Origin: Marinigracilibium pacificum
GTDB taxonomy: Bacteria; Bacteroidota; Bacteroidia; Cytophagales; Cyclobacteriaceae
Direction: 5' to 3'
Assembly: GCF_012926615.1 (NCBI RefSeq)
Contig: NZ_JABBNU010000012.1
Span: 62,001 to 126,000 of the forward strand
Length of the DNA: 64,000 bases
Shown here: positions 104 through 31,986 of the stretch, in pieces
Layout of the letters: each line of letters starts with the position of its first letter
How positions within the stretch are numbered: the stretch's first letter is position 1
Program-made: the position numbers and the translations under genes
The notes under the pieces: generated by a model
Database searches by the model: none
What the model was told of the DNA's origin: nothing
What the model saw: the letters and a program-made list of their open reading frames with translations, nothing else

Positions 104-631
104 AATAATTCGATTTAATCACCATTCAACTTTACTGTTGACCTTTGATTATCATTAATATAAATAAAAATTTGATTTTGGATAGATTTTTTGATCAATT
201 ATTTTGTTTTTACTTCAAATTCGATATAAAGTGTGGGTATATCCCAATAGATGAAATATTTTATTTTAATAAATGAATTGGTTAGTCTGGAATTAGGATT
301 TATTGAATGGTCCATTTAAAGTGTTAAATAAAATTATCTAAACGTAGAATATTTATTTAGCTTTTATTATTACAGTCAACACATATGTGGTAATTATTTG
401 GTTTTCAATTTTTTGTAAACTTATTATTTCATGGTTTATTCTAGTTTTGGCTTTAAAGTGAAAATAAAATTAGAATTATTGAAACTATTATCGGTATATG
501 TCGTAAAGGAAATATATGTCCTATTAAAAAAAATAATTGTATATATAGGACATTTTTATTATGTTTGCTAATAAGATTTTGTTTAATAGACATATTTGGC
601 AATCTTCTTATTAGTGATAACAAAGAAAGAC
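104..631. other. AT-rich intergenic region
   Basis: About 530 bases between two divergent genes, strongly AT-rich. I see no convincing gene. A 61-codon open frame on the minus strand at 453-638 is low-complexity hydrophobic and antisense to the regulator start. The only clear structure is the inverted repeat at 516-553, listed separately. Confidence 0.5.
516..553. promoter_or_regulatory. Inverted repeat upstream of the XRE/ImmA gene
   Basis: ATGTCCTAT (516-524) and ATAGGACAT (545-553) are perfect 9-base complements separated by 20 bases. A half-related ATGTCGTA lies just upstream at about 498. The repeat is about 80 bases before the regulator start, so it could be an operator for the XRE protein. 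The T-run after the right arm also allows a terminator reading on the plus strand. Confidence 0.45.
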
Positions 632-1738
632 ATGACAACTAAAGATAATATTGTAGTATTTGCTTCAAATCTTAGCTTGCTAAGAAGGAATGCTGGTTTG
701 ACTCAAGCTCAATTAGCAGAGAAAATCGAAGTTAGTTCTAAAACAATTAGACGATATGAGAGTGGGGAAGCTTATCCTAATATGAAAGTTGTGTTATCAT
801 TGTCTTCAAAATTGAAGGTGAAAATCGAAGATTTTTTTAATGAAAACCTAAAGCAACATTTGTTAGAAAATAATTTTTCGATCGTAGATACATATCATCA
901 TAATCCAAAGTTCAATCTTAATCGAGTTAATTATCGAAGTGGAGTTGATTTACCAAGTGAGTTGACTGATAGTATTAAAAGTGCAACTGTTGATCGGTTA
1001 TTGAAGATTAATGAGCTTTATGATATTCTTAATGTTGATATAAAATTTAATAATCCACTAAAAAATGATAAGCCTATTAAATCAAGAGTTGATGCTGAAA
1101 AGGCAGCAATGAAGGTAAGGAAAAAATGGGGTTTAGGACAAAGTCCAATTGTTTCTGTAATAACTACTTTAGAGAATCATGGTGTTCATGTGATTGATTT
1201 TGATTCACCAGGTGAATTTCAGGGATTGAGTGCCTTTGTCAATGATATTCCAATCATAGTATTGAATAGTTCGGTGTCTGAGACAACCAGAAGAAGGTTT
1301 ACTGCAATGCATGAATTGGGACATTTAGTATTGAATATGGGTGTCGATGACTTTAATGAAATAGAAAATTTTTGTGATGCATTTGCTGCGACAATGTTGA
1401 TGCCCAGAAATTTATTATTGCTTGAACTGGGTGAAAAAAGAACGAGAATTTCAAAAGCTGAGTTAAGGACAATTAAAGAGAAGTATGGGATTTCTGTTCA
1501 AGCATTGTTAGTGGGGGCAGTTTTGTCTGATATTATTTCTTGGGTTCAATATCAGGAGATGAAGAATGAATATTCTTCTGATTTAGGTGAATATCTAGGC
1601 AATGAAAAATCAACACAATTTGAACAGTTTGTGTTTAGAGGTATTGTAGAAGGACATATTTCAAAAGATAAAGCAAAAGAATTATTGGGGATTGGTTATA
1701 AAAAGTTCAAACAAACCTTAGAAAGTGCACTTGGATGA
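632..1738 (+). CDS. XRE-family regulator with ImmA/IrrE metallopeptidase domain
   Basis: The predicted protein has 368 residues. Residues 10-70 form a Cro/C1-type helix-turn-helix (GLTQAQLAEK followed by SSKTIRRYESG). The C-terminal half carries a zinc peptidase motif HELGH at residues 227-231, followed by DAFAATMLMP, the usual third region of ImmA/IrrE (COG2856) proteins. Such proteins act as repressors, or as anti-repressors that cut a partner when DNA is damaged. ATG at 632 is chosen because it follows a purine-rich AAGAAAGA and starts directly at the helix-turn-helix; an in-frame TTG at 596 would add 12 unlikely residues. The stop overlaps the start of the next gene (ATGA), so the two are translationally coupled. 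With the PIN-like partner this resembles known XRE/IrrE plus PIN toxin-antitoxin pairs. The same regulator may also control the ubiquitin-like operon downstream, which is inference. Confidence 0.88.
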   Translation: MTTKDNIVVFASNLSLLRRNAGLTQAQLAEKIEVSSKTIRRYESGEAYPNMKVVLSLSSKLKVKIEDFFNENLKQHLLENNFSIVDTYHHNPKFNLNRVNYRSGVDLPSELTDSIKSATVDRLLKINELYDILNVDIKFNNPLKNDKPIKSRVDAEKAAMKVRKKWGLGQSPIVSVITTLENHGVHVIDFDSPGEFQGLSAFVNDIPIIVLNSSVSETTRRRFTAMHELGHLVLNMGVDDFNEIENFCDAFAATMLMPRNLLLLELGEKRTRISKAELRTIKEKYGISVQALLVGAVLSDIISWVQYQEMKNEYSSDLGEYLGNEKSTQFEQFVFRGIVEGHISKDKAKELLGIGYKKFKQTLESALG

Positions 1739-2151
1739 TTGAGATTGTAGTTAACGATATTGATTTACTATTAAAACTTCGAAAGGGAGGATTTCTTTCA
1801 GAAGATCATAATTTTAAATTTATAGTACATCAAAATAAATGGGAAAAATCTGATAGAATTGATCAGTTGTACTTAGACCCTTATATCAATAAGGGTATTA
1901 TTTTGATTGATGAATGTGATAGGATGAATATTTCAGAGGTGTTTATTTTATCGGATAAATATAGTCTATTAAAATATACCATTTCTGACTTTATGTCAAT
2001 TCAACTTTGCCTAAATCAAGGGAATAGGTTGCTTTCAGAAAACTTAGCAATACGGAAAATTGCACAAAAAGAAAATATTGAAATTATTAGTTATGAACAA
2101 ATTACTCAGGTAATTATTAGAAAAATATCGTATGTAAAAGTGTTAAAATAA
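1735..2151 (+). CDS. PIN-like toxin, partner of the XRE/ImmA protein
   Basis: The protein has 138 residues and overlaps the upstream gene by 4 bases. It has the layout of short PIN-domain proteins: an N-terminal beta strand ending in the first acid (VVND, D8), a central acidic stretch (LIDECDR, ISE), a helix starting at D85, and a late NRLLSENLAIRKIAQ element where active PIN domains usually have TxD. Here that last position is SEN, so one metal ligand may be missing or replaced by E102. PIN proteins cut RNA, and in the known XRE/IrrE operons the second gene is the PIN-type toxin. Operon context supports the role; fold and activity are inferred. It could also be a degenerate, inactive PIN fold. 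Confidence 0.6.
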   Translation: MIEIVVNDIDLLLKLRKGGFLSEDHNFKFIVHQNKWEKSDRIDQLYLDPYINKGIILIDECDRMNISEVFILSDKYSLLKYTISDFMSIQLCLNQGNRLLSENLAIRKIAQKENIEIISYEQITQVIIRKISYVKVLK

Positions 2152-2497: not shown

Positions 2498-3127
2498 ATG
2501 AATTATAAGATTCAAATAAATAATAAAGTATATGATGTTCCGACGGAACATCTTTTAGGTAAAGAGATTCTTCAAATTGGTGGATATATGGATCCACAGG
2601 AGGCAGATCTTTTTTATGTAAAGAAAGGGAATCAGCAAGAATTAATTTCATCTGATCAAAAGATTGATCTTTCTGATCCGGGAATTGAGCGATTTAGAAT
2701 AAGACCTAAAAAGGTAAAGGATGGATTAATTGAGGGCGTAAGCCCTCTTTTATCTAAGGATATTGATTTTTTAAATAAAGAATTCGATGGTCAATGGAGC
2801 ATTTCATTAGATAGGAATAGAAAGATATTAAAAATATCAGATTTTGTACTCCCTGCTGGATATGTTCAAAATAAATCAGATTTGATTATTATTATTCCAC
2901 CTATGTATAACGCTGTTCAACTGGATATGGCATATTTTTCTCCTGGACTTATAAGGATAGATAAAAAAAATATAATTGGAATTACAAACACGAAAATGGA
3001 TGGCAAACCTTATCAACAATGGAGTAGACATAGGACACCAGATTGTTCTTGGGATTCAAGTGTTGATTGTGTTGAAACTCATATTGATTTAATTAGATTT
3101 TTTCTGAAGGAGGAGTTGAAAAGATAA
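2498..3127 (+). CDS. Ubiquitin-like/E2-like fusion protein (multiubiquitin plus Prok-E2 family E)
   Basis: The protein has 209 residues in two parts. Residues 1-72 resemble the bacterial multiubiquitin beta-grasp domain: a short strand (KIQINNKVYDVP), GKEILQIGGY, an acidic turn with LFYVKKG, then the D-x-x-IDL end. Residues 85-209 resemble the bacterial E2-like family E: LPAGY, a hydrophobic strand, PPMYNAVQLDM in place of the eukaryotic E2 proline turn, and the signature QQWSRH with W185 and a late acidic-hydrophobic helix. Cysteines at 183 and 191 lie close to that signature. The Ubl has no C-terminal di-glycine and is fused head-on to the E2, so it has no free tail as encoded. The gene overlaps the JAMM-E1 gene by one base. 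Likely role: Ubl and conjugating enzyme of a bacterial ubiquitin-like system. Assignment rests on motif recognition. Confidence 0.75.
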   Translation: MNYKIQINNKVYDVPTEHLLGKEILQIGGYMDPQEADLFYVKKGNQQELISSDQKIDLSDPGIERFRIRPKKVKDGLIEGVSPLLSKDIDFLNKEFDGQWSISLDRNRKILKISDFVLPAGYVQNKSDLIIIIPPMYNAVQLDMAYFSPGLIRIDKKNIIGITNTKMDGKPYQQWSRHRTPDCSWDSSVDCVETHIDLIRFFLKEELKR

Positions 3128-4482
3128 TGACAACATTTAGACTAACAAAAAAGTTACATGATGAAATGATGGAATTTCTTTTCCAAGATGAAAATGAAAG
3201 TGCAATGCTAGGCTTATGTAGCTATAATACTTTTATGGGACAAAATTTCATTATGTTACATAGGTTAATAAAAGTACCGCATGAGATATGCGAAAGATAT
3301 CCAAACTTCATTTCTTGGCCTACAGAGTTTTGTGATGAATATCTTGATACTGCCTTAACTGATAATATGACTTTGGTGAAGTTTCATTGTCATCCATCAG
3401 ATTATAGACAGTTCTCAACTACAGATGATTCATCAGATGTACAATTATTTGATTATTTCAATGCTTATTTTAATGACGGGAGACCAACAGCAAGTTTGGT
3501 AGTCGTTCCTAATGGCTTTATGTTTGGAAGACTAATTTCTAATGAAGGAAAGTTTAATAGCATTGATAAAATATCAATAATAGGCGAAAGACAACTATAT
3601 TATTCAGATGATGATAATGTTGTATTGCCGGAATTTCTAATCAGAAATAAACAAGTATTTGGTAAAGCTACAACCGAGACTTTAAGAAAGTTGAAAATTG
3701 GTGTTGTAGGTTGCAGTGGGTTAGGATCACCTACTATTCTGGAGTTAGCCAGAAGTGGCGTAGGTGAATTGATAATTGTGGATGATGACACAATTGAAAT
3801 AGAAAATTTGAACAGGATTTTTGGAGCGTCACTAAATGATATTGGTAAAACTAAGGTAGAGTTTTTTAAGGAAAAGATAGAGTCTTTCGGCCTTAATGTA
3901 AAAGTTACTGGTCTCAATGAGAATATATGTAAATCTCAATTATCATTGATGCAATTAAGTACATGCGATCATATATTTGGTTGCATAGATAAATATCTAC
4001 CGAGAGAGATTATCAATAGGTTAACAACTTTTTTTATTATTGGTTATACTGATCTATCTGTTGGCTTAAAGCCAGATGGAGAAGGAGGTATTAATAGTAT
4101 GGTAGGTTGGGTTCGTTATCTATTACCAGGTGGATCTTCATTAATGACCAGAGGTATGTATAATTCAGTCGATTTGGAATCTGAGGCACTTGAATTATTT
4201 TCACCTGAAGATTATAAAATAAAGAAACAAGCAGGGTATTTAGCTGAAGTTAACGAAGGGAGTCCTACAGTGATATGTTTGAATACTACAGTTGCTTCTT
4301 TAGCAGTCACTGATTTTCTACATAGGATTCATGGATTTAAATATAAAAAGGAGTTAGGTTTCTGTATAGATTTTTGTGAGAATGTTATTGAAGAAGAAGA
4401 TGCTTTTCCCGAAAATTTAATGCTAGCTGATTCAATAGGCAAAGGAAAAACTAGTCCATTTCTTGATTTGAATTTTTATTAA
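3127..4482 (+). CDS. JAMM peptidase and ThiF/E1 activating enzyme fusion
   Basis: The protein has 451 residues. The N-terminal domain (about 1-165) is a JAB/MPN metallopeptidase: E24 in an early strand-helix element, then H87-x-H89, seven residues, S97-x-x-D100, a perfect JAMM site. The C-terminal domain (about 175-430) is a ThiF/E1-type adenylation domain with the Rossmann motif GVVGCSGLGS (192-201), IIVDDD, and ENLNR, the arginine-bearing loop of E1 enzymes. In bacterial ubiquitin-like operons the JAMM part trims or removes the Ubl and the E1 part adenylates it. Together with the upstream Ubl-E2 protein, two genes supply all four activities. It starts one base before the upstream stop, so expression is coupled. 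Such operons are linked to phage defence in other bacteria; the role here is inferred. Confidence 0.88.
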   Translation: MTTFRLTKKLHDEMMEFLFQDENESAMLGLCSYNTFMGQNFIMLHRLIKVPHEICERYPNFISWPTEFCDEYLDTALTDNMTLVKFHCHPSDYRQFSTTDDSSDVQLFDYFNAYFNDGRPTASLVVVPNGFMFGRLISNEGKFNSIDKISIIGERQLYYSDDDNVVLPEFLIRNKQVFGKATTETLRKLKIGVVGCSGLGSPTILELARSGVGELIIVDDDTIEIENLNRIFGASLNDIGKTKVEFFKEKIESFGLNVKVTGLNENICKSQLSLMQLSTCDHIFGCIDKYLPREIINRLTTFFIIGYTDLSVGLKPDGEGGINSMVGWVRYLLPGGSSLMTRGMYNSVDLESEALELFSPEDYKIKKQAGYLAEVNEGSPTVICLNTTVASLAVTDFLHRIHGFKYKKELGFCIDFCENVIEEEDAFPENLMLADSIGKGKTSPFLDLNFY

Positions 4483-4652: not shown

Positions 4653-4780
4653 ATATGTTAAATTAAAAACACACAATCGTTATTAATTAAACTATGTTAC
4701 TACTTTTTATGTGGCGCTCAGTTCTTTAAGATTTTGTATTTAAATAATGTTACTGTTTTAACTAATGATTAAATTGTAAC

Positions 4781-5401
4781 ATGAAGTCGATAATTTATAC
4801 CAGGGTATCTTCAAAAGACCAATCCACTAAAAGACAGTTAAATGATATGAAGTCAATCTCTGGCTTTGAGGTTGCCCAAGTTTTTTCAGAAAAAATTTCC
4901 GCTTTCAATAAATCTTCATTTCACAGGCCAGTTCTCCAAAAAGCTCTCTTGTATGCATATGAAAATGATGTTAAATGTGTAATGATTTCTGAAGTATCCA
5001 GAATAGGTAGAAATACAGTTGATGTATTAAATATAATTGAAGATTTAAAACAACAAGAGATAGCGATCTACATACATAACCTAGGAACAACAATTAATAA
5101 AGGAGACCATTCTGGAAATATATTTACAAAACTCATTGTTACAATTATGGCTGATTTAGCTAGACTTGAAAGTGAACAATTGAGTTATAGAATAAAATCG
5201 GGAATAAGGGCTAGGAAAGCAAGGGGGTTAACTACTGGAAGAAAAGTTGGTTCAAAAGAATCTGAGGAAAAATTTCTTACCAAGCATCAAGATATAATTA
5301 AGTATTTATCCAAGGGATATTCATCTCGTGAAATTCAAAAACTATGTAAATGTTCACCAAATACTATCAGAAAAGTAAAAATGAATTTAATTACCATTTA
5401 A
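4781..5401 (+). CDS. Serine recombinase (resolvase/invertase family)
   Basis: The protein has 206 residues. Residues 1-135 are the catalytic domain: YTRVSS with nucleophile S10, then SEVSRIGRN and the long E helix (MADLARLESEQLSYRIKSG). Residues 140-206 hold GRKVGS and a C-terminal helix-turn-helix (SSREIQKLCKCSPNTIRKV). Size and layout match small resolvases that act on supercoiled DNA at a paired res site. GTTAC/GTAAC inverted elements directly before the start (about 4747-4778) may be part of its site or operator. No transposase accompanies it, so it may resolve a plasmid or the larger island. Confidence 0.88.
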   Translation: MKSIIYTRVSSKDQSTKRQLNDMKSISGFEVAQVFSEKISAFNKSSFHRPVLQKALLYAYENDVKCVMISEVSRIGRNTVDVLNIIEDLKQQEIAIYIHNLGTTINKGDHSGNIFTKLIVTIMADLARLESEQLSYRIKSGIRARKARGLTTGRKVGSKESEEKFLTKHQDIIKYLSKGYSSREIQKLCKCSPNTIRKVKMNLITI

Positions 5402-5669
5402 TTAAATGGTATAAAAGAAAAAGGAAAAGTTTTGAATAGTTTATTTATTTTCATTCACAATGTTTTTTTATTACCCTTTTTATAAAAATGGAGTTTTAAT
5501 TTTTTAAAAAAAATGGCACTTTTGAAATACTTTTTAAATTTATTATCATTTCTAAAGTTTTAAAAAACTGAAAATAAATTTTACTTACAAAGTAAATTTA
5601 GAATAAATAAAGTGGATTTATATTTTTTCATTTTATAATTGAATTTTGAATAAAGGAAAAGCTTCAACT
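5402..5669 (+). promoter_or_regulatory. AT-rich leader before the antiphage deaminase; possible inhibitory RNA or operator
   Basis: About 270 bases without an ORF, extremely AT-rich. It holds a near-perfect palindrome TTTACTT-ACA-AAGTAAA (5580-5596) and a GGCACTTTTGAAATAC element near 5515 that partly resembles a -7 box. In the Vibrio AvcID system a small inhibitory RNA is encoded immediately upstream of avcD. Whether this leader encodes such an RNA cannot be decided from sequence alone. Confidence 0.3.
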
Positions 5670-7232
5670 ATGAATAATTTAAGAGTCGAGAAAAATACGG
5701 ATTTTGAAATTTTGGGTAAAACTACAAAAGATAAGGTTCAAAATACTGAAACTGAAGAGCTTATATTTGGAATTTGCTCAACAATAGGATCGTCTAAGGA
5801 AATTGTTATAGATTCACTTAAAAGACGTTTGAAAGAGTATAATTATGATGTGGAAATTATTAAACTTAGTGAATTTATTTTAGAGAATACAAAGGATGAA
5901 CTAAAGAATATAGATGGCAAAACTGCTATGTATTCAGAAATCCAATTTAAAATTCAACAAGGAAATAAACTAAGAAAAAATTTTAGTCCTTCTATTTTAG
6001 CAGATTTAGCGATAGAAAAAATTCATGGAGAAAGATTAACTATAGATGGGGAATTAGTTACTGATCCTTTAAGATTTAAAACTAGACGAATTTGTTATAT
6101 TATTGATTCAATTAAAAATAAGGAGGAGTTATACTTATTTCGTTCTATTTATAAAGATTTATTTTACATGTTTGGAATATTTTCTCCATTACAAGAACGA
6201 AATGAATATTTACTCAGAAAAGATTTATCTCAAGCTGAAATTGATGAGCTTATAAGTACTGATAGCTTTGAAAATAATACAGAAGGTCAAAATGTGAGAA
6301 ATACATTCATACATGCTGATTTTTTCTTTCGAATGTCTAATAAATTAAAAGCTGAAATTGATAAAAAAACAGAAAGATATTTGCATTTAATATTTAATAG
6401 TTCCATAATAACACCTTTGAAACAAGAAAGAGCAATGTATGATGCTCAATCAGCTGCAGGAAATTCAGCTTGTTTATCTAGACAGGTAGGAGCTGCTATA
6501 GTAGATACTGAAGGTAATTTAATTTCCAAAGGTTGGAATGATGTACCTAAGTATGGAGGGAATTTATATGATGAAAATGATGTAGAAGATAATAGGTGTT
6601 TTGTTAAAGGTTATTGTAGTAATGATTCTGAAAAAACTAAAATGGCCGATTCTATTTTTGAAATTTTTGATAAGAATATTGCAATTAGTGATTTTTTAGA
6701 AAAGAATCAGGAATTAAAAAGGGAATTAAAAAATATATTGAGAAATTCATCTAGAGTAAAAGATTTAATTGAATTTTCTAGATCTGTTCATGCTGAAATG
6801 CATGCAATAATTAATGGTAGTCAATTAGCTGGTTCTAAAATGAAAAATGGTAAATTATATTGTACTACTTATCCATGTCATAATTGTGCTCGGCATATTA
6901 TAGTTGCAGGTATAACAGAGATTTACTACATTGAACCATACATTAAAAGTTTATGCACTTCTTTACATGAGGATGCTATAACTGAAGATGAAAACAGTGA
7001 AAATAGCAAAAAGGTTAAAATTTTGATGTATGATGGTGTGGCTCCAAGAAGGTATTTAGAATTTTTTACTAAAACTATTGAAAGAAAGAACAAGTTGGGT
7101 CAATATGAATATAATAAAATTGAATTAACAAGATTTAAACCTAAAACCAAGTTATCTTTGCAAGCATTAGGCACTCTTGAGCAACAATCTGTACATTCTT
7201 TAAATCAAATGGGTTTTTATGATGGAAAATAA
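5670..7232 (+). CDS. AvcD-like antiphage deoxycytidylate deaminase
   Basis: The predicted protein has 520 residues. The N-terminal half (about 30-230) is a nucleoside-kinase-like P-loop region; its loop GICSTIGSSK is a degenerate Walker A. The C-terminal half is a zinc cytidine/deoxycytidylate deaminase with H374-A-E376 and C403-H-N-C406 (in YPCHNCARH). A P-loop domain plus dCMP-type deaminase in about 520-530 residues is the layout of AvcD/DCD defence proteins, which deplete dCTP or dCMP pools during phage infection. ATG at 5670 fits an AAAGGAAAAG ribosome site; an in-frame TTG at 5646 would add eight residues. All catalytic residues are present. A small ORF overlaps its 3' end. An ordinary metabolic dCMP deaminase would be about 150-180 residues, which argues against housekeeping. 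Confidence 0.87.
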   Translation: MNNLRVEKNTDFEILGKTTKDKVQNTETEELIFGICSTIGSSKEIVIDSLKRRLKEYNYDVEIIKLSEFILENTKDELKNIDGKTAMYSEIQFKIQQGNKLRKNFSPSILADLAIEKIHGERLTIDGELVTDPLRFKTRRICYIIDSIKNKEELYLFRSIYKDLFYMFGIFSPLQERNEYLLRKDLSQAEIDELISTDSFENNTEGQNVRNTFIHADFFFRMSNKLKAEIDKKTERYLHLIFNSSIITPLKQERAMYDAQSAAGNSACLSRQVGAAIVDTEGNLISKGWNDVPKYGGNLYDENDVEDNRCFVKGYCSNDSEKTKMADSIFEIFDKNIAISDFLEKNQELKRELKNILRNSSRVKDLIEFSRSVHAEMHAIINGSQLAGSKMKNGKLYCTTYPCHNCARHIIVAGITEIYYIEPYIKSLCTSLHEDAITEDENSENSKKVKILMYDGVAPRRYLEFFTKTIERKNKLGQYEYNKIELTRFKPKTKLSLQALGTLEQQSVHSLNQMGFYDGK

Positions 7233-9279: not shown

Positions 9280-9804
9280 ATGAAAAATATTAAAAATATT
9301 TTCTTTTTCATGCTTCTTTTAACTGGATGTGAATGTGATGATGTAATAGAAGAACCTAGTTCTGGGTTACCTCCGATTTCTGAAACTGGTAAAGATTTTA
9401 TAGCATTTAAGTTAAATGAAGAAATATTTATAGCTGATGGTTATTATCAATATTCAGAATATAATGATAATGGAACGCCATTTTATTTTATGATTAATGC
9501 GGAAGAAGATTTTAATCGAAGAGAAGTAAAACAATTTTTTAACTTGAAATTTTTTGATGAAATAAGTCAAGGTGATTCAATCTTATTAAACCAAAACCAA
9601 GGCATTGATTTTGAATTTAACAATGTTTATCCAACACCTCAGGTAATTTATACACATGAGAATATTGTTGATGGGTATGTTAAATTCTCAAAAGTTGATC
9701 ATGAAACTTTTATAATATCTGGCACTTTTGATATGACCTTAGAAAAAGAGGGATTTAAAACTTTAGAAATTAAAGAAGGACGATTCGATTTTAAATACAA
9801 ATAA
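9280..9804 (+). CDS. DUF6252-like lipoprotein, paralogue of the protein at 22522-23043
   Basis: The protein has 174 residues. The signal peptide ends in lipobox LTGC (C17), followed by ECDD. It shares long identical stretches with the lipoprotein at 22522-23043, for example NIVDGYVKFSKVDHE, DISQGDSILL (here EISQGDSILL) and GRFDFKY. Its C-terminal GRFDFKYK is the DUF6252-type ending. It sits between the Spy-like gene (5 bases) and the large T9SS hydrolase (21 bases). Function unknown; probably anchored at the outer membrane. Confidence 0.7.
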   Translation: MKNIKNIFFFMLLLTGCECDDVIEEPSSGLPPISETGKDFIAFKLNEEIFIADGYYQYSEYNDNGTPFYFMINAEEDFNRREVKQFFNLKFFDEISQGDSILLNQNQGIDFEFNNVYPTPQVIYTHENIVDGYVKFSKVDHETFIISGTFDMTLEKEGFKTLEIKEGRFDFKYK

Positions 9805-9825
9805 AGAGCAACAAAATTAATTACT

Positions 9826-13670: not shown

Positions 13671-14249
13671 ATGAGAAAAATAATCTTTATATCTTTTCTA
13701 TTTATTGTTTCATATTGCGCTTTTGGACAATATGCCAAAAAACCATCTTTTTATATTGATCTTGGTTTGGATCATGGTAATTATGCTGGAGCATCTTTTA
13801 CTTTGAATTTTATAACAAAAAATAATTTAGTTTTTAGTGGTTTTTATGCCTTTTATCAAAGGTATCCTAATTGGCTTGATAAAAGTTCTATTAATGCTCT
13901 AACACCGTATATTGTTCCGAAAGAAAAAAATCATAACATTGGGGTATCTTTTGGGAAAGGGTTCTACTTAAATGATATTGAAACTATCAGGTTCAGTGTT
14001 AATGGAGGTGTTGGATTTACAAAACTTTACGATCCTATCTATAAGGAGAATATTTCTATAGATAATGCGGAATTTTCAGAATCGTTTTCTCCTGCTTTAT
14101 ATTTAAACCCACGTTTGGAATTTCCATTTTCAAGATATTTTGGTTTAGGTGTTGGTTGTAGAATGACTGCAACTAAAGACAGATACTATTTTGGAATATC
14201 CACATCACTATTAGTTGGATCCCTTAGAGAAAAAAAGATTAATAATTAG
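13671..14249 (+). CDS. Secreted beta-barrel-like outer membrane protein, uncharacterised
   Basis: The protein has 192 residues with a clear signal peptide ending CAFGQ. The mature part consists of alternating hydrophobic/polar strands rich in Gly, Phe and Tyr (FYIDLGLDHGNYAGASFTLN, IRFSVNGGVGFTKLY, GLGVGCRMTAT). It ends in a strand, as small outer membrane beta-barrels do. It starts 21 bases after the hydrolase terminator. No family is recognised; the barrel call is from composition. Confidence 0.6.
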   Translation: MRKIIFISFLFIVSYCAFGQYAKKPSFYIDLGLDHGNYAGASFTLNFITKNNLVFSGFYAFYQRYPNWLDKSSINALTPYIVPKEKNHNIGVSFGKGFYLNDIETIRFSVNGGVGFTKLYDPIYKENISIDNAEFSESFSPALYLNPRLEFPFSRYFGLGVGCRMTATKDRYYFGISTSLLVGSLREKKINN

Positions 14250-14379: not shown

Positions 14380-14691
14380 TTAATTGATGAAGTATGATGG
14401 ACCATCATACTTGCTCTGTGGTTTTGTTAAAATTATTTTTTTTACTAATACTTCAATTCTCTGGTTCGGTTTTGTGCTATTCATCACAGGTCTTCCTCCG
14501 ACTGGCCAAATAACAATTCCTCGTTCCATTTTAAAATAACTATTCGGGCTTTTAACCAATACAGAAGCTCCTATTATTTGAAAACATATGATGTCTTTTA
14601 AAAAAATGGTTCCCATAGCTAGTTTTGATTGGTCAAAAAGATCCCAGTCCAGATCATTGTTGATCCTGACAACCAAGGTGCTTTTCATCAT
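14380..14691 (-). CDS. Small conserved-looking protein of unknown function
   Basis: The minus-strand ORF gives 102-103 residues (start MMKST or MKSTLVVRINNDLDW). Composition is ordinary globular protein rather than antisense noise: LFDQSKLAMGTIFLKDIICFQ, SVLVKSPNSYF, GIVIWPVGGRPVMN, VEVLVKKIIL. GAGCGGA lies just upstream of the start and could serve as ribosome site. It lies alone between two plus-strand genes and directly after the terminator of candidate small RNA 2. Function unknown. Confidence 0.5.
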   Translation of the reverse strand: MMKSTLVVRINNDLDWDLFDQSKLAMGTIFLKDIICFQIIGASVLVKSPNSYFKMERGIVIWPVGGRPVMNSTKPNQRIEVLVKKIILTKPQSKYDGPSYFIN

Positions 14692-20480: not shown

Positions 20481-20547
20481 TTTAGTATTTACTATTGTAA
20501 TTTTAGCATATACTACTGTTATTTAGCATCATCTTTTGTAATTGACA
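20481..20547 (-). mobile_element. Terminal end of a Tn7-like transposon inserted in comM
   Basis: Starting at the exact point where comM homology stops, the minus strand reads TGTCAATTAC inward. Three 18-bp repeats follow, given here on the plus strand: 20522-20539 TTTAGCATCATCTTTTGT, 20502-20519 TTTAGCATATACTACTGT, 20481-20498 TTTAGTATTTACTATTGT. Twelve of 18 positions are invariant and spacing is 20-21 bp. A 5'-TGT tip with tandem about 20-bp sites is the TnsB-binding architecture of Tn7-like elements, and comM is a known target of such islands. The adjacent CCTGA (20548-20552, plus strand) would be one target duplication. The other end and tns genes are not in the window. Confidence 0.65.
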
Positions 20548-22521: not shown

Positions 22522-23043
22522 ATGAAAAAAATTAGAATAATAATATCATTCATTGTTTTGTTAGGTAGTTGTCAATGTGATGATATTTTTCCGGAGCCAA
22601 ATACTGGTTTGCCTCCAATATCTGATACAGGTGAAAATTTTATCGCCTTTATGTTGAATGAAGAAGTTTTCTACGTGAATGGGACTAATTTTATATCAGA
22701 TTATCGAATGGATGGAAGGCCTTATTATTTAATGATTTTTTCGAAAGAAGACTTTAATCGCAGACATGTAAAACAATATTTCACTATGCAATTTTATAAT
22801 GATATAAGTCAGGGCGATTCGATCTTATTAATTAATAACCAAGATATAGAAATAGAATTTAACAATGCCTATCCATTACCTGATGTTATTTATTATAATG
22901 AAAACATTGTTGATGGTTATGTTAAATTCTCAAAAGTTGATCATGAATCGACTATTATATCCGGCACTTTTGAAATGACTTTAGAAAAGGATGGATATGA
23001 AAACCTTGAAATTACTGAAGGGCGTTTTGATTTTAAATACTGA
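22522..23043 (+). CDS. DUF6252-like lipoprotein, paralogue of 9280-9804
   Basis: The protein has 173 residues from ATG 22522 (an upstream GTG at 22474 would add an unlikely lead). The lipobox is LGSC (C17), followed by QCDD. It matches the lipoprotein at 9280-9804 over its full length (GLPPISDTGENFIAF, DISQGDSILL, NIVDGYVKFSKVDHE, EGRFDFKY). This copy has no hydrolase next to it and is flanked on both sides by 235-bp repeats, which suggests it was duplicated or moved with them. Function unknown. Confidence 0.7.
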   Translation: MKKIRIIISFIVLLGSCQCDDIFPEPNTGLPPISDTGENFIAFMLNEEVFYVNGTNFISDYRMDGRPYYLMIFSKEDFNRRHVKQYFTMQFYNDISQGDSILLINNQDIEIEFNNAYPLPDVIYYNENIVDGYVKFSKVDHESTIISGTFEMTLEKDGYENLEITEGRFDFKY

Positions 23044-23045
23044 TG

Positions 23046-23281
23046 AAGGACTCCATTCGGAGTGTTGCCTTTTCAGCGAAACGCATAAGACTAAATTGTC
23101 TGAATCAGGATTTATAGGATTAAAGGATGTTAGGATAAGAAACCAAAAGCCTCTACCAGCTCAGGGGCTTTTTTTGATCATTAAATTTCACAATGTATCA
23201 TTGCTTTAGAATGACCGGGTCACAGACTCTGTAAATCATAAAAAAGTTTGAAGTTTTACTACGAAACACTCCAGACAATAG
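23046..23281 (+). repeat. Dispersed 235-bp intergenic repeat, copy B
   Basis: It begins 3 bases after the lipoprotein stop and carries the same ordered blocks as copies A and C. A 72-codon open frame over it (22991-23209) is just the repeat read through and is not a gene. Confidence 0.8.
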
Positions 23282-27033: not shown

Positions 27034-27945
27034 TTAATCGTGCCTTGCACCTTTAAAAATTCTGAATAAATGTAGTATAAATGGAAATATAGCATCCATT
27101 GATTCTTTTGCTCCGTTGGTGGAACCAGGTATAGCCATTATCAGGCTTTTGCCATAGGTGCCCACAATACTTCTGGAAAGCATTGCATAAGGCATCCGGT
27201 TTTGCCCGTAATTTCTAATAGCTTCTTCAACTCCCGGGATTTTTCTATCAAGTAAAGGTTCTAAAGCCTCTGGTGTCACATCACGTTTTGATAAGCCTGT
27301 CCCTCCAGTAAAAATTATCAGGTCTGCACCATCATTCTGGTAAATTTTCGCTTTATCCTGAATCAGGTCTGATTCATCAGGAATAATTGTATAGTCCATT
27401 ATCGAAACCTCACACTCTTCTAATTTTTTGATAATGGCTTTACCCGCTGTGTCTTCTTTTTTGCCAGCAGAAATTGCATCGGAACAGACGATAACCGCAG
27501 CTTTAAGGTCTTTTCTGAAATTATCTACATAATCTGATTTCCCACCTTTTTTATTGAGCAATTTAATATTATGAATTTCAACGCCCTTATCAATGGGTTT
27601 AAGCATGTCATACATGTTTAATGCTACGACACTGGCTCCGTGCATTGCTTCAACTTCAACACCTGTTTTGTAAATGGTTTTTACGGTAAACAGGATGGTA
27701 ATTTCCAATCCATTGATTTCATACTCGATCCCGGCAAATTCAATAGGGATTGGGTGACAATCAGGAAGTAGTTCCGGGGTCTTTTTCACACCAAGTAATC
27801 CTGCTGCTTTGCTTATTTCAAATACATCACCTTTGGGAACCGTATTGTTATTAATGGAGTCGATAGTCTCTTGCTTACTCACTTTAACAATTGCCTGTGC
27901 TGTTGCAATCCTTAGGGTATTGATTTTATTTGTGATGTCGATCAT
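27034..27945 (-). CDS. moaCB: Bifunctional molybdenum cofactor protein MoaC-MoaB/MogA
   Basis: The protein has 303 residues with two domains. Residues 1-140 are MoaC (cyclic pyranopterin monophosphate synthase): KGDVFEISKAAG, LLPDCHPIPI, and TGVEVEAMHGASVVALNMYD. Residues 148-303 are MoaB/MogA-like molybdopterin adenylyl/molybdenum insertion: VIVCSDAISAGKKEDTAG, FTGGTGLSKRDVTPEA, and AIPGST. Such fusions occur in Bacteroidota. It is the last gene of the minus-strand cluster fdhD-fdhF-mobA-moaCB, after mobA by 72 bases. MoaA and the MoaD/MoaE synthase are not in the window. Confidence 0.93.
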   Translation of the reverse strand: MIDITNKINTLRIATAQAIVKVSKQETIDSINNNTVPKGDVFEISKAAGLLGVKKTPELLPDCHPIPIEFAGIEYEINGLEITILFTVKTIYKTGVEVEAMHGASVVALNMYDMLKPIDKGVEIHNIKLLNKKGGKSDYVDNFRKDLKAAVIVCSDAISAGKKEDTAGKAIIKKLEECEVSIMDYTIIPDESDLIQDKAKIYQNDGADLIIFTGGTGLSKRDVTPEALEPLLDRKIPGVEEAIRNYGQNRMPYAMLSRSIVGTYGKSLIMAIPGSTNGAKESMDAIFPFILHLFRIFKGARHD

Positions 27946-28017
27946 GATTTAATTTACTGCCTGTTATTGATGGGGTTTGTCTAAAAAATGCTTTCCATGA
28001 AACTGGTGTAATAGATT

Positions 28018-28587
28018 TTATTTAATCAGGTTTTGCCATTCTTCACTTGTATTCACATTGGTCACCTTGTTCCAGTCTTTTTTGCTTAGTGTGAGGGTTT
28101 TTACGCTTAATTTTCCAAGGGCAAATTGTACCCGACGTTCTCCATTTTGTAGCAAATCTAAAAATACTGGTGCACATTTCTTTTTGTAAAGTGCTACCAA
28201 AGGCATTATTTGGCCATTAGCTTCTAGTTGTATAACATCAGCACTATTTGTGATATTATCAACCAAAATTTTAAGCAGATTTGTCGTTATTAGAGGAACA
28301 TCACAACTTAGAACCAGGTTATATTCAGTTTTAGAATGATATAATCCGGTATAAATGCCTGCCAGTGGGCCAGCAGGCAAAATATCAGAAACGCATTTCA
28401 AGTTGAACAGTTGATGTTCTTTATGATTGCTTACCAGTATAATTTCATTTGTTATAGGTTTGAGAGCATCTAATATATGAGTCAAAAATGATTTTCCGTT
28501 TAGTTGCATCAATGCTTTGTCTGTTCCCATCCTTGTGCTGTTGCCTCCAGCCAGAATTATTCCGGTTATATCGCTTTTGATGACCAT
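28018..28587 (-). CDS. mobA: Molybdenum cofactor guanylyltransferase
   Basis: The protein has 189 residues. The N-terminal nucleotide-binding motif is GIILAGGNSTRMGTDKAL, followed by LPAGPLAGIYTGL and LSCDVPLI, all hallmark MobA elements; GTP and Mg bind there. It converts Mo-molybdopterin to the guanine dinucleotide form that formate dehydrogenases of this class carry. Position directly downstream of the fdhF-like gene fits that use. Confidence 0.93.
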   Translation of the reverse strand: MVIKSDITGIILAGGNSTRMGTDKALMQLNGKSFLTHILDALKPITNEIILVSNHKEHQLFNLKCVSDILPAGPLAGIYTGLYHSKTEYNLVLSCDVPLITTNLLKILVDNITNSADVIQLEANGQIMPLVALYKKKCAPVFLDLLQNGERRVQFALGKLSVKTLTLSKKDWNKVTNVNTSEEWQNLIK

Positions 28588-28679
28588 GATATATTTTAAA
28601 ATGTTTCGGATTAAATAAAGAAACCCTCCTGAGCTATCTCAAGTATTAGATTAGAGTTTTATTAGGATCAAATACAATA

Positions 28680-31070
28680 TTACTCCAGACTATTATTTTT
28701 AATCATCTCGATTCTCTCATAAACCTTGTCATCATGTGGTCTTATTTTAATCCTTACAAATTTAGATGCAGGCATATTGCTTTCTTTAACCACGTTGTTT
28801 ATCGAAACCAATACATTTGTTTCAGGAAAATAGGTTATAGTATTTTTCTCCGGAACCGGATATTTGACAACTATGAAAAGGGGAGCTATTCGCTCTTTAC
28901 CATCGTCAAAATTATATAAGTCAACTTTATCTCCTTCTTTGAGTCCGGCTTTTTTAATGTCATTGATATTCATTAAAATAACCCGCCTTTCGTTGTAAAT
29001 CCCCCGGTATCTGTCGTCTAGTCCATAAATAGTTGTGTTAAACTGGTCGTGTGTCCGGGTTGTAGCCATCAGGTATTCATCTTCAGCTAAGGTATTATCC
29101 GGAATATCTACTACAGAAAATTGGGCTTTGTCATCACTAGCTCCGGATTTGAATTTTCCATCACGGGCTGCATTAGGAAGATAAAAGCCACCTTTCTGTT
29201 TTACACGGACATTATAATTGTCAAATCCGGGAATACACTTTTCAATATCTTCGCGCACAGCATCGTAACTTTTTAAATAGCGATCCCAGTCAACCACCGA
29301 ACGGTCTCCCAGTGTTGCCTTAGCCATTCTACAAACAATATGAGTTTCATTAATTAATTTTGATGAAACAGGCTCAAGCATTCCTCGTGACCATTCTACA
29401 ACACCCATAGAATTTTCCGTGCTTACATATTGCCATTCACCATTAACAATATCTTTTTCACTTCTGGAAATTGTTGGGAGAATCAAAGCTTCTTTACCAT
29501 GAATAAGGTGGCTTCTATTCAGTTTTGTTGATACTGAAACACTCAAATCCAGTTTACGGATTCCGTTGGCTACAAAAGTGGTGTCAGGTGCGGCAGAAAG
29601 AAAGTTTCCTCCCATTCCAAAAAACACTTTCACTTTACCCTCATTCATTGCTTTAATGGTTTCAACGACATCGTAACCGCTTTCCCTTGGCGGATTAAAA
29701 CCAAAAACTTCCTGTATTTTGTCTAGTTGATCCTGGGTTGGGTTATTATCAATCAGCATTGTTCGATTACCCTGAACATTACTGTGTCCGCGCACCGGAC
29801 TTGGCCCACCTCCGGGTTTACCAATACTTCCTTTTAATAATAGTAAGTTGATGATTTCACGACAGATATCAACGCCATTATGCTGCTGTGTTACACCCAT
29901 TCCCCAACAGATGATGATACGCTTTTTAAAACGGATCATTTCAGCTGCTTTTTTCAAATCATCAAACGATACTCCTGATTTTTCAACAATTTCGTTAACA
30001 TCCAGTTTTTTCAGTTGGTCTAAAAACTGATCAAAACCAGTAGTTTTACTTTTAATAAATTCATAATCGAAAACTTTCCCGGGATCTTCTTCTTCAAACT
30101 CAAGCAAAAATTTTTCTATAGCCTTCAATAAAGCCAGATCGCCATTAATTTTTACCGGTAAATAGAGATCAGCCAGTTCAGCGGTAATACCTAAAATCCC
30201 CGATACTTTTTGTGGGTCACGAAATCCCATTAACCCGGCTTCTGGTAGTGGATTAACGGCAATTATTTTCGCTCCATTTTTTTTGCCTTTAGCCAGGGCA
30301 TTCAACATCCGGGGTGAATTGGTGCCTGGGTTTTGACCAATAATGAATATAATATCCGTATCATAAAATTCTTTTAATTTTACTGTTCCTTTACCTACTC
30401 CAAGTACAGACCTTAAGGCAAAGCCGGAGGTTTCATGACACATATTTGAACAATCAGGAAAGTTGTTAGTGCCAAATTCCCTAACAAATAGCTGATAGGC
30501 AAATGAAGCTTCATTGCTTGTCCTTCCTGAAGTATAAAATGCTGCGTTATCTGGTGATTCTAATTTATTTAGATGAAAAGCTATTTTTTCAAATGCTTCA
30601 TCCCAACTTATGGGTTGATAGTGTGTGCCGTTTTCAGGTAAATACATTGGTTCTGAAAGCCTGCCTAAATGCCCTATTTCATAATCTGTTAGCAAGGACA
30701 AATCGCAAACAGAATTCTTCTTAAAAAAGTCAGCGGTTATCCGTTTGGTAGTAGCTTCTTCTGCAAGAGCCTTTGCGCCGTTTTCGCAATATTCTGCAAT
30801 GGGCGAACGTTCGTCATCCGGGTCGGGCCATCCACAACTGGGGCAATCGAATCCATCAAACTGATTCATTTTGAAAAGGGCTTTTCCACCTCTGGTTAAG
30901 GTTTTTTCCTTAGATAAATTCTGTAGCGACTTAATTACAGCAGGAACTCCACCAGCCCAATTTTTCTCTTTCTCTTGTTTTAAGTTGGAAAGTGTAAAAG
31001 GAGATTGAGTTGCAGGTATATCTGTGTTTTTTTTATCTGATTCACTTTTGGGCTTATCGTGATGTTTCAT
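28680..31070 (-). CDS. FdhF/YdeP-family molybdopterin oxidoreductase (formate-dehydrogenase-like)
   Basis: About 796 residues from ATG 31070 (MKHHDKPK). The open frame continues 26 codons further into fdhD, but ATG 31070 lies 10 bases after the fdhD stop and is the natural start. FDCPSCGWPDPD with EYCENGAKA near residue 85 and DCSNMCHETSGFAL near 200 are typical of the FdhF/YdeP group; IIGQNPGTNSPRML and GGPSPVRGHSNVQGNRTM are molybdopterin-binding segments. The C-terminal part (MATTRTHDQFNTTIYG, then ERRVIL) is the MGD-binding beta-barrel. No signal peptide, so cytoplasmic. Substrate is probably formate or a related acid; YdeP relatives are poorly characterised. Confidence 0.85.
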   Translation of the reverse strand: MKHHDKPKSESDKKNTDIPATQSPFTLSNLKQEKEKNWAGGVPAVIKSLQNLSKEKTLTRGGKALFKMNQFDGFDCPSCGWPDPDDERSPIAEYCENGAKALAEEATTKRITADFFKKNSVCDLSLLTDYEIGHLGRLSEPMYLPENGTHYQPISWDEAFEKIAFHLNKLESPDNAAFYTSGRTSNEASFAYQLFVREFGTNNFPDCSNMCHETSGFALRSVLGVGKGTVKLKEFYDTDIIFIIGQNPGTNSPRMLNALAKGKKNGAKIIAVNPLPEAGLMGFRDPQKVSGILGITAELADLYLPVKINGDLALLKAIEKFLLEFEEEDPGKVFDYEFIKSKTTGFDQFLDQLKKLDVNEIVEKSGVSFDDLKKAAEMIRFKKRIIICWGMGVTQQHNGVDICREIINLLLLKGSIGKPGGGPSPVRGHSNVQGNRTMLIDNNPTQDQLDKIQEVFGFNPPRESGYDVVETIKAMNEGKVKVFFGMGGNFLSAAPDTTFVANGIRKLDLSVSVSTKLNRSHLIHGKEALILPTISRSEKDIVNGEWQYVSTENSMGVVEWSRGMLEPVSSKLINETHIVCRMAKATLGDRSVVDWDRYLKSYDAVREDIEKCIPGFDNYNVRVKQKGGFYLPNAARDGKFKSGASDDKAQFSVVDIPDNTLAEDEYLMATTRTHDQFNTTIYGLDDRYRGIYNERRVILMNINDIKKAGLKEGDKVDLYNFDDGKERIAPLFIVVKYPVPEKNTITYFPETNVLVSINNVVKESNMPASKFVRIKIRPHDDKVYERIEMIKNNSLE

Positions 31071-31080
31071 TTTTGTAATA

Positions 31081-31986
31081 TTAAATATTTTGTAGGGCAG
31101 GTGATACGATGTACTCAATGCCATTATAGATGTTACATCGATTCTCATTTAAAAATCCAATAAGAACAATATTGAACTCCTTTGCTAGTTCAACAGCCAG
31201 ACTTGAAGGTGCTCCAATCGATGCTACGATTGATACACCTGCCATGGCAGCTTTTTGAATAAGTTCAAAACTAGCCCTTCCGCTTAAAAGCAAAATATGT
31301 TGATTTAAAGGTAATAAATCATCTTTAAGGGCATTACCTATAAGTTTATCTAACGCATTATGTCTCCCTACATCCTCGTGTACTAAAAGTAAGTCCCCGT
31401 TGGCACTAAAGAGTCCGGTAGCATGAATGCCACCTGTTTGAGAAAAGCTATTCTGAAATGACTTTAATTTATCTGGTAATGAATATAAGACTTCAAGTGA
31501 AATATTCTTTACGGGGTTTTCATTTTTGCAGTAACTGTTAACAGTTTTTATTGATTCAATAGAGGCTTTACCACACACACCACAGCTTGAGGTAGTATAA
31601 AAATTCCGATCTGATTGAGACAGATTTGGAACTACTGATTCATGAAGTTCTACAACAACGATATTTTGACTCTGTCTATTACAAGAGTTTTCAACTTTAC
31701 GGACGTCTTTAATGTCGAGATAAGAAGAAATAACTCCTTCGGTAAACAAAAAGCCTATTGCCAGGTAGTGATCCTCTCCTGGAGTTCGCATTGTAACAGA
31801 TATATTTTTTTCAATTATATCATTAGGCTTTCCATAAATTACCCTGATCTCCAGAGGTTCTTCTACCGATAGTTTATCAGTTGTTTCCAAACTAATTTTA
31901 CCTTTCATTTTGTGAATGAAAGCTTCCTTAATTGAAACTAATTCTGAATTTTTCATTTTTGATGTTTCAAAAGTGGTGTTTATCAT
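31081..31986 (-). CDS. fdhD: Formate dehydrogenase accessory sulfurtransferase FdhD
   Basis: The protein has 301 residues. The defining loop is SSCGVCGKASIE, with the two cysteines that relay sulfur from a cysteine desulfurase to the molybdenum cofactor. TGGIHATGLF, EDVGRHNALDKLIG and LSGRASFELIQKAAMAG are further FdhD motifs. It is first in the minus-strand cluster, 10 bases before the FdhF-like gene it should serve. ATG 31956 is an alternative start. Confidence 0.95.
   Translation of the reverse strand: MINTTFETSKMKNSELVSIKEAFIHKMKGKISLETTDKLSVEEPLEIRVIYGKPNDIIEKNISVTMRTPGEDHYLAIGFLFTEGVISSYLDIKDVRKVENSCNRQSQNIVVVELHESVVPNLSQSDRNFYTTSSCGVCGKASIESIKTVNSYCKNENPVKNISLEVLYSLPDKLKSFQNSFSQTGGIHATGLFSANGDLLLVHEDVGRHNALDKLIGNALKDDLLPLNQHILLLSGRASFELIQKAAMAGVSIVASIGAPSSLAVELAKEFNIVLIGFLNENRCNIYNGIEYIVSPALQNI

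Follow-up and report, generated by a model that had tools for sequence, protein, structure and literature searches.

A two-gene bacterial ubiquitination-like (Bub) operon carried by a Tn7-like transposon in Marinigracilibium pacificum

The described bacterial systems closest to the locus reported here, each combining a ubiquitin-like protein (Ubl) with E1, E2 and JAMM (JAB) peptidase domains, are operon type 6e, Citrobacter Bub (bacterial ubiquitination-like), and Bil. In the excerpts of Iyer et al. (2006) cited here, type 6e comprises one to three Ubl, an inactive E2/RWD-like domain that is sometimes fused to the Ubl, and a JAB domain at the N terminus of the E1 (PMC1779556). For Citrobacter Bub, solved structures are available (PDB 9ea4, 9ea5, 9ea8, 9eae, 9eav), and PDB entry titles pair BubCD with BubA and with BubB, including the JAMM mutant D104A. 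Bil (BilABCD) is a four-gene system with a cysteine E1 and a cysteine E2, according to the cited parts of PMC11354881. In a 64,000-nucleotide stretch of Marinigracilibium pacificum DNA (contig NZ_JABBNU010000012.1, positions 62,001 to 126,000; hereafter the window), two genes at 2498-4482 encode the same four domain types. Our analysis indicates that this operon is almost certainly Bub, in the smallest form, with a BubA-BubB fusion followed by BubCD. The system itself is thus already known, and the window copy is a small, mobile member of its family.

A Bub operon of two genes

The genes and their parts, all on the plus strand, are as follows.
2498-3127, plus strand: bubA-bubB fusion gene (gene A; Ubl plus E2-like domain), 209 residues, intact open reading frame (ORF)
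2504-2725, plus strand: ubiquitin-like beta-grasp domain, residues 3-76, the last being the conserved Gly76
2720-2731, plus strand: predicted JAMM cleavage junction in a putative flexible linker, residues 75-78 (D-G|L-I)
2732-2747, plus strand: mRNA hairpin at the Ubl-E2 junction, 6-bp stem with a GUAA loop
2747-3112, plus strand: E2-fold domain (Prok-E2_E), lacking a conserved Cys and with invariant S176 and H178
3127-4482, plus strand: bubCD gene (gene B; N-terminal JAMM peptidase and C-terminal E1-like adenylyltransferase), 451 residues, intact ORF
3385-3426, plus strand: JAMM motif H87-x-H89-x7-S97-x2-D100, with E24 upstream, from the 95-locus alignment
3631-4479, plus strand: E1-like domain without an obvious catalytic Cys; Y371 aligned to Citrobacter Y370

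The two genes overlap by one base (TAATG). Pfam recognized Multi_ubiq in gene A residues 3-70 (43.4 bits against a cut-off of 24.5), Prok-E2_E in residues 84-205 (82.8 bits; cut-off 25), and ThiF in gene B residues 176-302 (106.4 bits), with Prok-JAB in gene B remaining below threshold (E 0.03, 14.7 bits; cut-off 25). The JAMM residues E24, H87, H89, S97, and D100 were complete in 94 of 95 aligned loci, the single exception (L014) having a gap at E24. Searched against the PDB, a profile of nine gene A relatives matched Citrobacter BubB (1.5e-40), the multi-ubiquitin structure 9d59 (3.3e-18), and BubA(155-229) (9.9e-13), and a profile of gene B matched Citrobacter BubCD (3.8e-138). The window sequences on their own returned the same proteins, namely BubB (1.5e-11), 9d59 (8.2e-6), and BubA(155-229) (8.4e-4) for gene A, and BubCD (8.6e-55, aligned over residues 6-430) for gene B. 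AlphaFold2 models of the fusion (predicted local distance difference test (pLDDT) 93.4, predicted template modeling score (pTM) 0.65) and of the gene B protein (pLDDT 91.8, pTM 0.92) had as their best Foldseek matches BubB 9eae_C (template modeling (TM) score 0.89 by target length) and BubCD (TM-score 0.86 by query length). These matches in sequence and fold to Citrobacter BubB, BubA, and BubCD identify the operon as Bub; the Pfam scores, the JAMM conservation, and the BubCD match are far above chance. The gene coordinates and the H-x-H-x7-S-x2-D motif read by an initial annotation of this DNA were exact, and its four domain assignments were borne out by Pfam, the PDB profiles, and the JAMM conservation. 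Structure prediction of both proteins yielded the beta-grasp, E2-fold, and JAMM-E1 matches to solved proteins that such assignments imply; of the families it named, Multi_ubiq, Prok-E2_E, and ThiF were recovered and Prok-JAB stayed below its cut-off.

The locus shares the Ubl, the E2 fold, and the JAMM-E1 protein with Citrobacter Bub, where BubA carries several Ubl (9d59) and BubB is a separate chain, whereas the window has one Ubl fused to BubB. The window operon also lacks a gene for DUF6527 (PF20137), a trait for which Citrobacter was not part of the comparison. It matches type 6e in its Ubl, inactive E2/RWD-like, and JAB-E1 components but has no counterpart of the metal-binding companion protein of that type, whose excerpted list names proteobacteria, cyanobacteria, and actinobacteria and does not name Bacteroidota (PMC1779556). 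Type II CBASS (cyclic oligonucleotide-based antiphage signaling system; Cap2/Cap3) is unlike it in that the E1 here is joined to the JAMM domain and not to an E2, and the seven ORFs scanned in the vicinity of the operon contained no CD-NTase family. L018 from Aestuariibaculum sp. M13 (59% identical in BubCD), the nearest relative found, resembles the window in having two genes, no DUF6527, a junction hairpin, and upstream helix-turn-helix (HTH) and M78 genes; unlike in the window, its regulator genes are separate and divergent, and no Tn7-like gene was found in its 8-kb flanks. The fused layout, which the initial annotation had singled out as distinctive, turned out to be the commonest one, with the Ubl fused to the E2 in 81 of 105 sampled loci, a sample biased by a search query of mostly fused proteins and by keeping the best 80 of 209 relatives; such fusion was already described in 2006 in the cited excerpts of PMC1779556.

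Proposed processing and transfer, and the absent DUF6527 gene

The terminal glycine of the Ubl was followed through 96 rows representing 95 distinct loci (L011 and L032 being the same locus) and was present in 95 of the rows, L016 being a partial match only and the glycine of L015 sitting one residue beyond the end of the match. All 77 fused rows keep the Gly aligned to Gly76. Among the 19 rows with a separate Ubl, the protein terminates exactly at this Gly in 15, carries 2-4 extra residues in 3, and is ambiguous in L016. The solved BubA(155-229) and 9d59 chains likewise end at the Gly aligned to G76, as constructs with author-chosen ends. In the fusion model, pLDDT falls below 50 over three or more consecutive residues only at 75-78, and because of this low confidence the Ubl-E2 junction is probably flexible. 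BubCD D104A, the mutant of the solved complexes, aligns to window D100. From the Gly-ending separate relatives, the solved chain ends, and the low-pLDDT segment we infer that the JAMM half of BubCD would cut the fusion after Gly76, a step well supported by comparison, to give a Gly-ended Ubl and an E2-fold protein. Gly76 as the predicted cut site is new here. An unlikely alternative is that the Ubl is never released and the fusion works whole, the Ubl serving as a docking domain for BubCD; the prevalence of the fusion (81/105 loci) would suit it, but the Gly is kept in fused genes even though no C terminus lies there, separate relatives stop at the same residue, and the junction is of low confidence and probably flexible.

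Our count of loci began from 114, of which five were repeats, and L107 and L145 were excluded for lack of an E2 profile match, leaving 108 distinct operons. A DUF6527 gene lies downstream of bubCD in 100 of the 106 loci with sufficient flank (L023 and L142 being too short to score), and the six loci without it are the window, L018, L102, L105, L106, and L141. A genome-wide search of M. pacificum for DUF6527 was empty at an E limit of 0.001, no hidden copy was detected on the same strand in the 4 kb downstream with E allowed up to 10, and no mention of DUF6527 was met in our literature search. In a quick BubCD tree (n = 105, three proteins shorter than 300 residues excluded, long branches elsewhere), the window and L018 are sisters (Shimodaira-Hasegawa approximate likelihood ratio test 100) that stand far from the other BubCD proteins. 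The absence of DUF6527 requires five changes on this tree, at least three of them forced by well-supported branches, with gain and loss indistinguishable. The two-gene form is accordingly rare yet recurrent. With five other loci lacking it, DUF6527 is, as far as we can tell, not a defining feature of Bub. Candidate interface columns for DUF6527 were sought among conserved positions, 9 of 76 of which are changed in both the window and L018; these proved uninformative because nearly all of them are retained in three of the four remaining DUF6527-less loci. It is very unlikely that the operon is a decaying remnant that ceased to work after losing DUF6527: the empty genome search and the presence of the gene in 100/106 loci speak for such a remnant, but both genes are full length and retain their JAMM and ATP-site residues, the closest relative, L018, has the same two-gene form, and that form recurs on the tree.

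After the predicted cut, the E1 half of BubCD would adenylate Gly76, as suggested by its fold and by the ATP-site residues G195, G198, G200, D219, R230, K243, and D288, each kept in 93-94 of 95 loci. Transfer of the Ubl to a target would then proceed without the customary cysteines of E1 and E2. Within the E2 domain, the alignment column richest in Cys has it in no more than 11 of 95 loci, and the cysteines of the window are poorly kept (C183 in 4/95 and C191 in 7/95), so that an active cysteine E2 relay, the activity claimed for this domain initially, is not supported and was rejected; the E2-like domain of this operon family is also described as inactive in the cited excerpts of PMC1779556. 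The best candidate participants in the transfer are the domain bearing S176 and H178, invariant in 95/95 loci, and Y371 of the E1 half, kept in 93/95 loci and aligned to Citrobacter Y370. The Y371/Y370 pairing was counted by hand on a chain with two extra residues and is consistent at the D104A site; the title of PDB entry 9eav names Y370F in a BubCD-BubB-BubA complex. The JAMM domain may additionally strip the tag. Taken jointly, the Gly76 cut, the adenylation, and the cysteine-less transfer are, on these alignments and models, a likely account of how the operon works. Several points weigh against this account. C286 of the E1, adjoining the conserved D288, is Cys in 90 of 95 loci, which leaves some room for a cysteine step; we take C286 to be structural, as in ThiF-fold enzymes. 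The absence of DUF6527 could mean reduced function, and the placement of the Ubl relative to the E2 domain is not reliable in the fusion model because its pTM is only 0.65.

A canonical cascade of the Bil type, in which the Ubl would move from an E1 Cys to an E2 Cys and onto phage structural proteins, draws on the same four domain types, on C286, and on the presence of C183 and C191 in the window E2, but these two are scarcely conserved, and the best structural matches are to Bub and not to Bil. In the cited parts of PMC11354881, the catalytic Cys of BilB sits within a CEHH motif and BilD contains a Cys domain, and the E2 here has no conserved Cys; we regard this cascade as highly improbable. 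Least credible of all is a ThiS/MoaD-like sulfur-carrier pathway, in which E1 and JAMM would make a thiocarboxylate: the E1 does belong to the ThiF/MoeB superfamily and molybdopterin genes occur at 27.0-32.0 kb of the window, but those genes lie beyond the end of the carrier transposon at 20547, the genome has other ThiF-family genes, and rhodanese and sulfur-metabolism families were absent from the seven scanned ORFs that surround the operon. A role in thiamine or molybdopterin synthesis was rejected on account of context, of two other full-length ThiF-family genes in the genome (contigs C23 and C32), and of scores, since the best ThiF models gave 75.8 and 75.6 (cut-offs 275 and 159) and the MoeB models at most 61.8 (cut-off 266) for gene B.

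A hairpin at the fusion junction

Just past the Gly76 codon, the window transcript can form a hairpin that was more stable than expected (z -3.19, with 0 of 200 dinucleotide shuffles equally stable; synonymous-codon permutation z -2.9, with 2 of 100 equally stable). The junction stem of L018 (8224-8243) is unlike that of the window in sequence, with a GNRA-type loop in both. Across 82 fused genes, dinucleotide shuffles gave a mean z of -1.47 at the junction, as against -0.87 to +0.24 at other offsets, and 33% of junctions fell below -2, as against 0-26% elsewhere. When synonymous codons were permuted within each gene, 24 of the 82 junctions had no more than 2 of 100 permutations equally stable, compared with 1-11 of 82 at other offsets, except for 17 near the Ubl start. 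Thinning to 69 representatives (less than 80% identical) left a peak of 20/69 at offset -10 relative to the Gly codon end, with 0-7/69 outside the peak (offsets -20 to 0) and a weaker second peak at the Ubl start (12/69). Perfect stems at least as strong as -8 kcal/mol occurred at 31 of 82 junctions, compared with 44 of 328 sites elsewhere in these genes; the count is unthinned, and at least five of the junction stems are located entirely or nearly entirely ahead of the Gly. The JAB-E1 linker gave no signal in 106 BubCD genes, whose first 60 bases gave a mild one (mean z about -0.5). Loci with split genes showed no peak in dinucleotide shuffles, with 3 of 25 below -2 versus 27 of 82 fused genes (Fisher p 0.045), a weak contrast. 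The hairpin test is post hoc, with one row (L105) anchored one codon off and phylogeny handled by thinning only. A palindrome, GATGTTCCGACGGAACATC, was seen separately at 2534-2552, within Ubl codons 13-19 (z -2.79).

The enrichment of junction hairpins in fused bub genes is new here. We tentatively suggest that a hairpin in RNA (or DNA) is selected exactly at the junction of fused bub genes and kept for its structure and not its sequence, and that by pausing or recoding translation it might set the ratio of free Ubl to fusion; to our knowledge, a comparable control element is known in no bacterial ubiquitin-like system. A terminator was rejected, since across 31 strong hairpins the 8 bases past the stem hold a mean of 2.06 U; the window by itself shows 6 U in these 8 bases. 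A stop in the -1 frame directly past the Gly was found in 19 of 82 genes versus 11.1 +/- 2.8 with permuted codons, and one in the +1 frame in 4 versus 2.6 +/- 1.0. A frameshift site was not supported, the -1 stop being present in only 6 of 31 strong-hairpin genes; no slippery heptamer was seen by eye in 36 junctions.

Transposon carrier, neighboring genes, and distribution

The operon is cargo of a Tn7-like transposon inserted in comM, at a site that is empty in both congeners searched. The carrier and the genes immediately upstream of bub are listed below.
1-20547, no strand assigned: right part of the 29,121-bp Tn7-like transposon carrying the operon, its left end lying 8,573 bp ahead of the window
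596-1738, plus strand: HTH plus M78 (ImmA/IrrE) metallopeptidase, from Pfam, with PADLOC RmrA/capP matches
1735-2151, plus strand: gene for a 138-residue protein of no family, sharing a few bases with the HTH-M78 gene

The transposon spans L146:5427-14000 and window positions 1-20547, and its ends are TGTTAAATTCAAAAG and TGTCAATTACAAAAG. It encodes TnsA, a TnsB-like transposase, TniB/TnsC, and TniQ, the gene set by which it was recognized as Tn7-like. In the congener G001, the left flank (L146 1-5426) stops at 1,110,060 and the right flank (window 20548 onward) begins at 1,110,237, leaving a gap of 176 bases, and the corresponding gap in the second congener, G002, is 175 bases. The first 20 kb of the window had no match in G002 and four scattered matches in G001, at 4746-5380 (82%, the recombinase region), 13922-14237, 14398-14553, and 14618-14658; the one at 13922-14237 (67%), which lies just beyond the right flank there, is probably a paralog. 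The N-terminal part of comM (Mg_chelatase positions 1-34) lies right of the element and the C-terminal part (126-205 and the C-terminal domain) left of it, and because about 176 bases of comM are missing, no target-site duplication was seen. In the cited part of PMC10293859, comM is a known target of Tn6022-like elements, Tn7 transposons with the same TnsA/B/C/TniQ set that are likewise inserted in comM. The window element differs from them in that neither TnsF nor TnsE was recognized in it. After TniQ follow genes for 553 and 185 residues with no Pfam family, the former of which was rejected as TnsE for want of similarity to the annotated TnsE of L005. They adjoin a helicase gene (L146:9921-13968) with partial PbeA-like PADLOC matches (best 1.4e-21).

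Genome G753 holds a separate-gene Bub with DUF6527 in a related element, also in comM (L130, L149, L150), whose TnsB is 46% identical to that of the window element, and in G518 a Bub operon lies near a similar Tn7-like gene set (L140, L151). The four transposase genes had phmmer matches in at least 3 of the 114 loci (L030, L130, L140), a lower bound because the locus flanks are short, and in L005 an annotated TnsE adjoins Bub. A narrow literature check returned no report of Tn7-like elements with ubiquitin-like cargo among the matches listed, and the word "ubiquitin" had no match in PMC8649781. Two paralogous stretches, 75% identical in DNA, occur inside the transposon (9280-9806) and outside it (22522-23048; contig C4 84522-85048). 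Also outside lies the molybdopterin cluster at 27034-31986 (MoaC-MoCF fusion, MobA-like protein, molybdopterin oxidoreductase, FdhD).

The upstream HTH-M78 protein is a possible CapH/CapP-like regulator, which would keep the operon low and release it on DNA damage in the manner of CapH plus CapP. M78-like ORFs were found upstream in 45 of 78 loci, the window included, by iterative hidden Markov model search, and Peptidase_M78 in 42 of 141 upstream ORFs by Pfam; these 141 ORFs comprise that of the window and 140 of 144 picked by script, with no more than two from any locus, in loci up to L097. In the cited part of PMC13373217, 219 of 544 Bub operons are accompanied by CapW or by CapH and CapP. 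This regulatory role is weakened by the regulator being, in the window, a fusion that shares the strand of bub and may be an independent unit, and by a terminator-like stem at 2203-2225 between the regulator pair and bub, so that co-regulation of bub is something we infer. The 138-residue protein showed no similarity to its L002 counterpart.

Directly downstream of bubCD lies a serine recombinase gene (4781-5401), whose best NCBIfam match, the Mpi family, is below cut-off. An invertible promoter driven by such a recombinase was rejected, no convincing inverted repeats surrounding the operon among the 25 longest of 101 pairs. The same transposon also carries an anti-phage dCTP deaminase (5646-7232; NF041025 474 bits against a cut-off of 400, PADLOC dCTPase 2.5e-159). 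The PADLOC scan, which covered 28 of the 65 ORFs of the window, gave no other clear match besides the operon and its HTH-M78 neighbor, and the partial matches of an ATP-binding cassette transporter (mad3/mad8) and a histidine kinase (PDC-M43B) were judged unspecific; the initial picture of an island full of defense genes was thus not upheld. Protection against phage, attributed there to ubiquitin-like operons of other phyla, holds for Bil, a known anti-phage pathway, and is not demonstrated for Bub in the cited part of PMC13373217.

Genomes with Prok-E2_E numbered 3 among 98 near relatives, 9 among 395 from the phylum, and 19 among 390 from the family (the M. pacificum genome counted each time), and neither congener (G001, G002) had the domain. 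On plasmids, gene A matched 79 records at 1e-5, 47 of them typed conjugative, and gene B matched 109 records at 1e-20, 54 of them typed conjugative. A phage search found no relatives of the operon proteins, and viral contigs yielded none by single sequence and one by alignment.

Besides Gly76 as cut site and the junction hairpin, the missing DUF6527 and the Tn7-like carrier in comM are new here, and all four merit follow-up. The predicted Gly76 cut and the hairpin are directly testable, and the two-gene form offers a very small set for reconstitution. It also suggests that some lineages can do without the DUF6527 partner. The carriage of the operon as Tn7-like cargo, together with a second Bub in a related comM element, is consistent with involvement in conflicts between mobile elements and their hosts.

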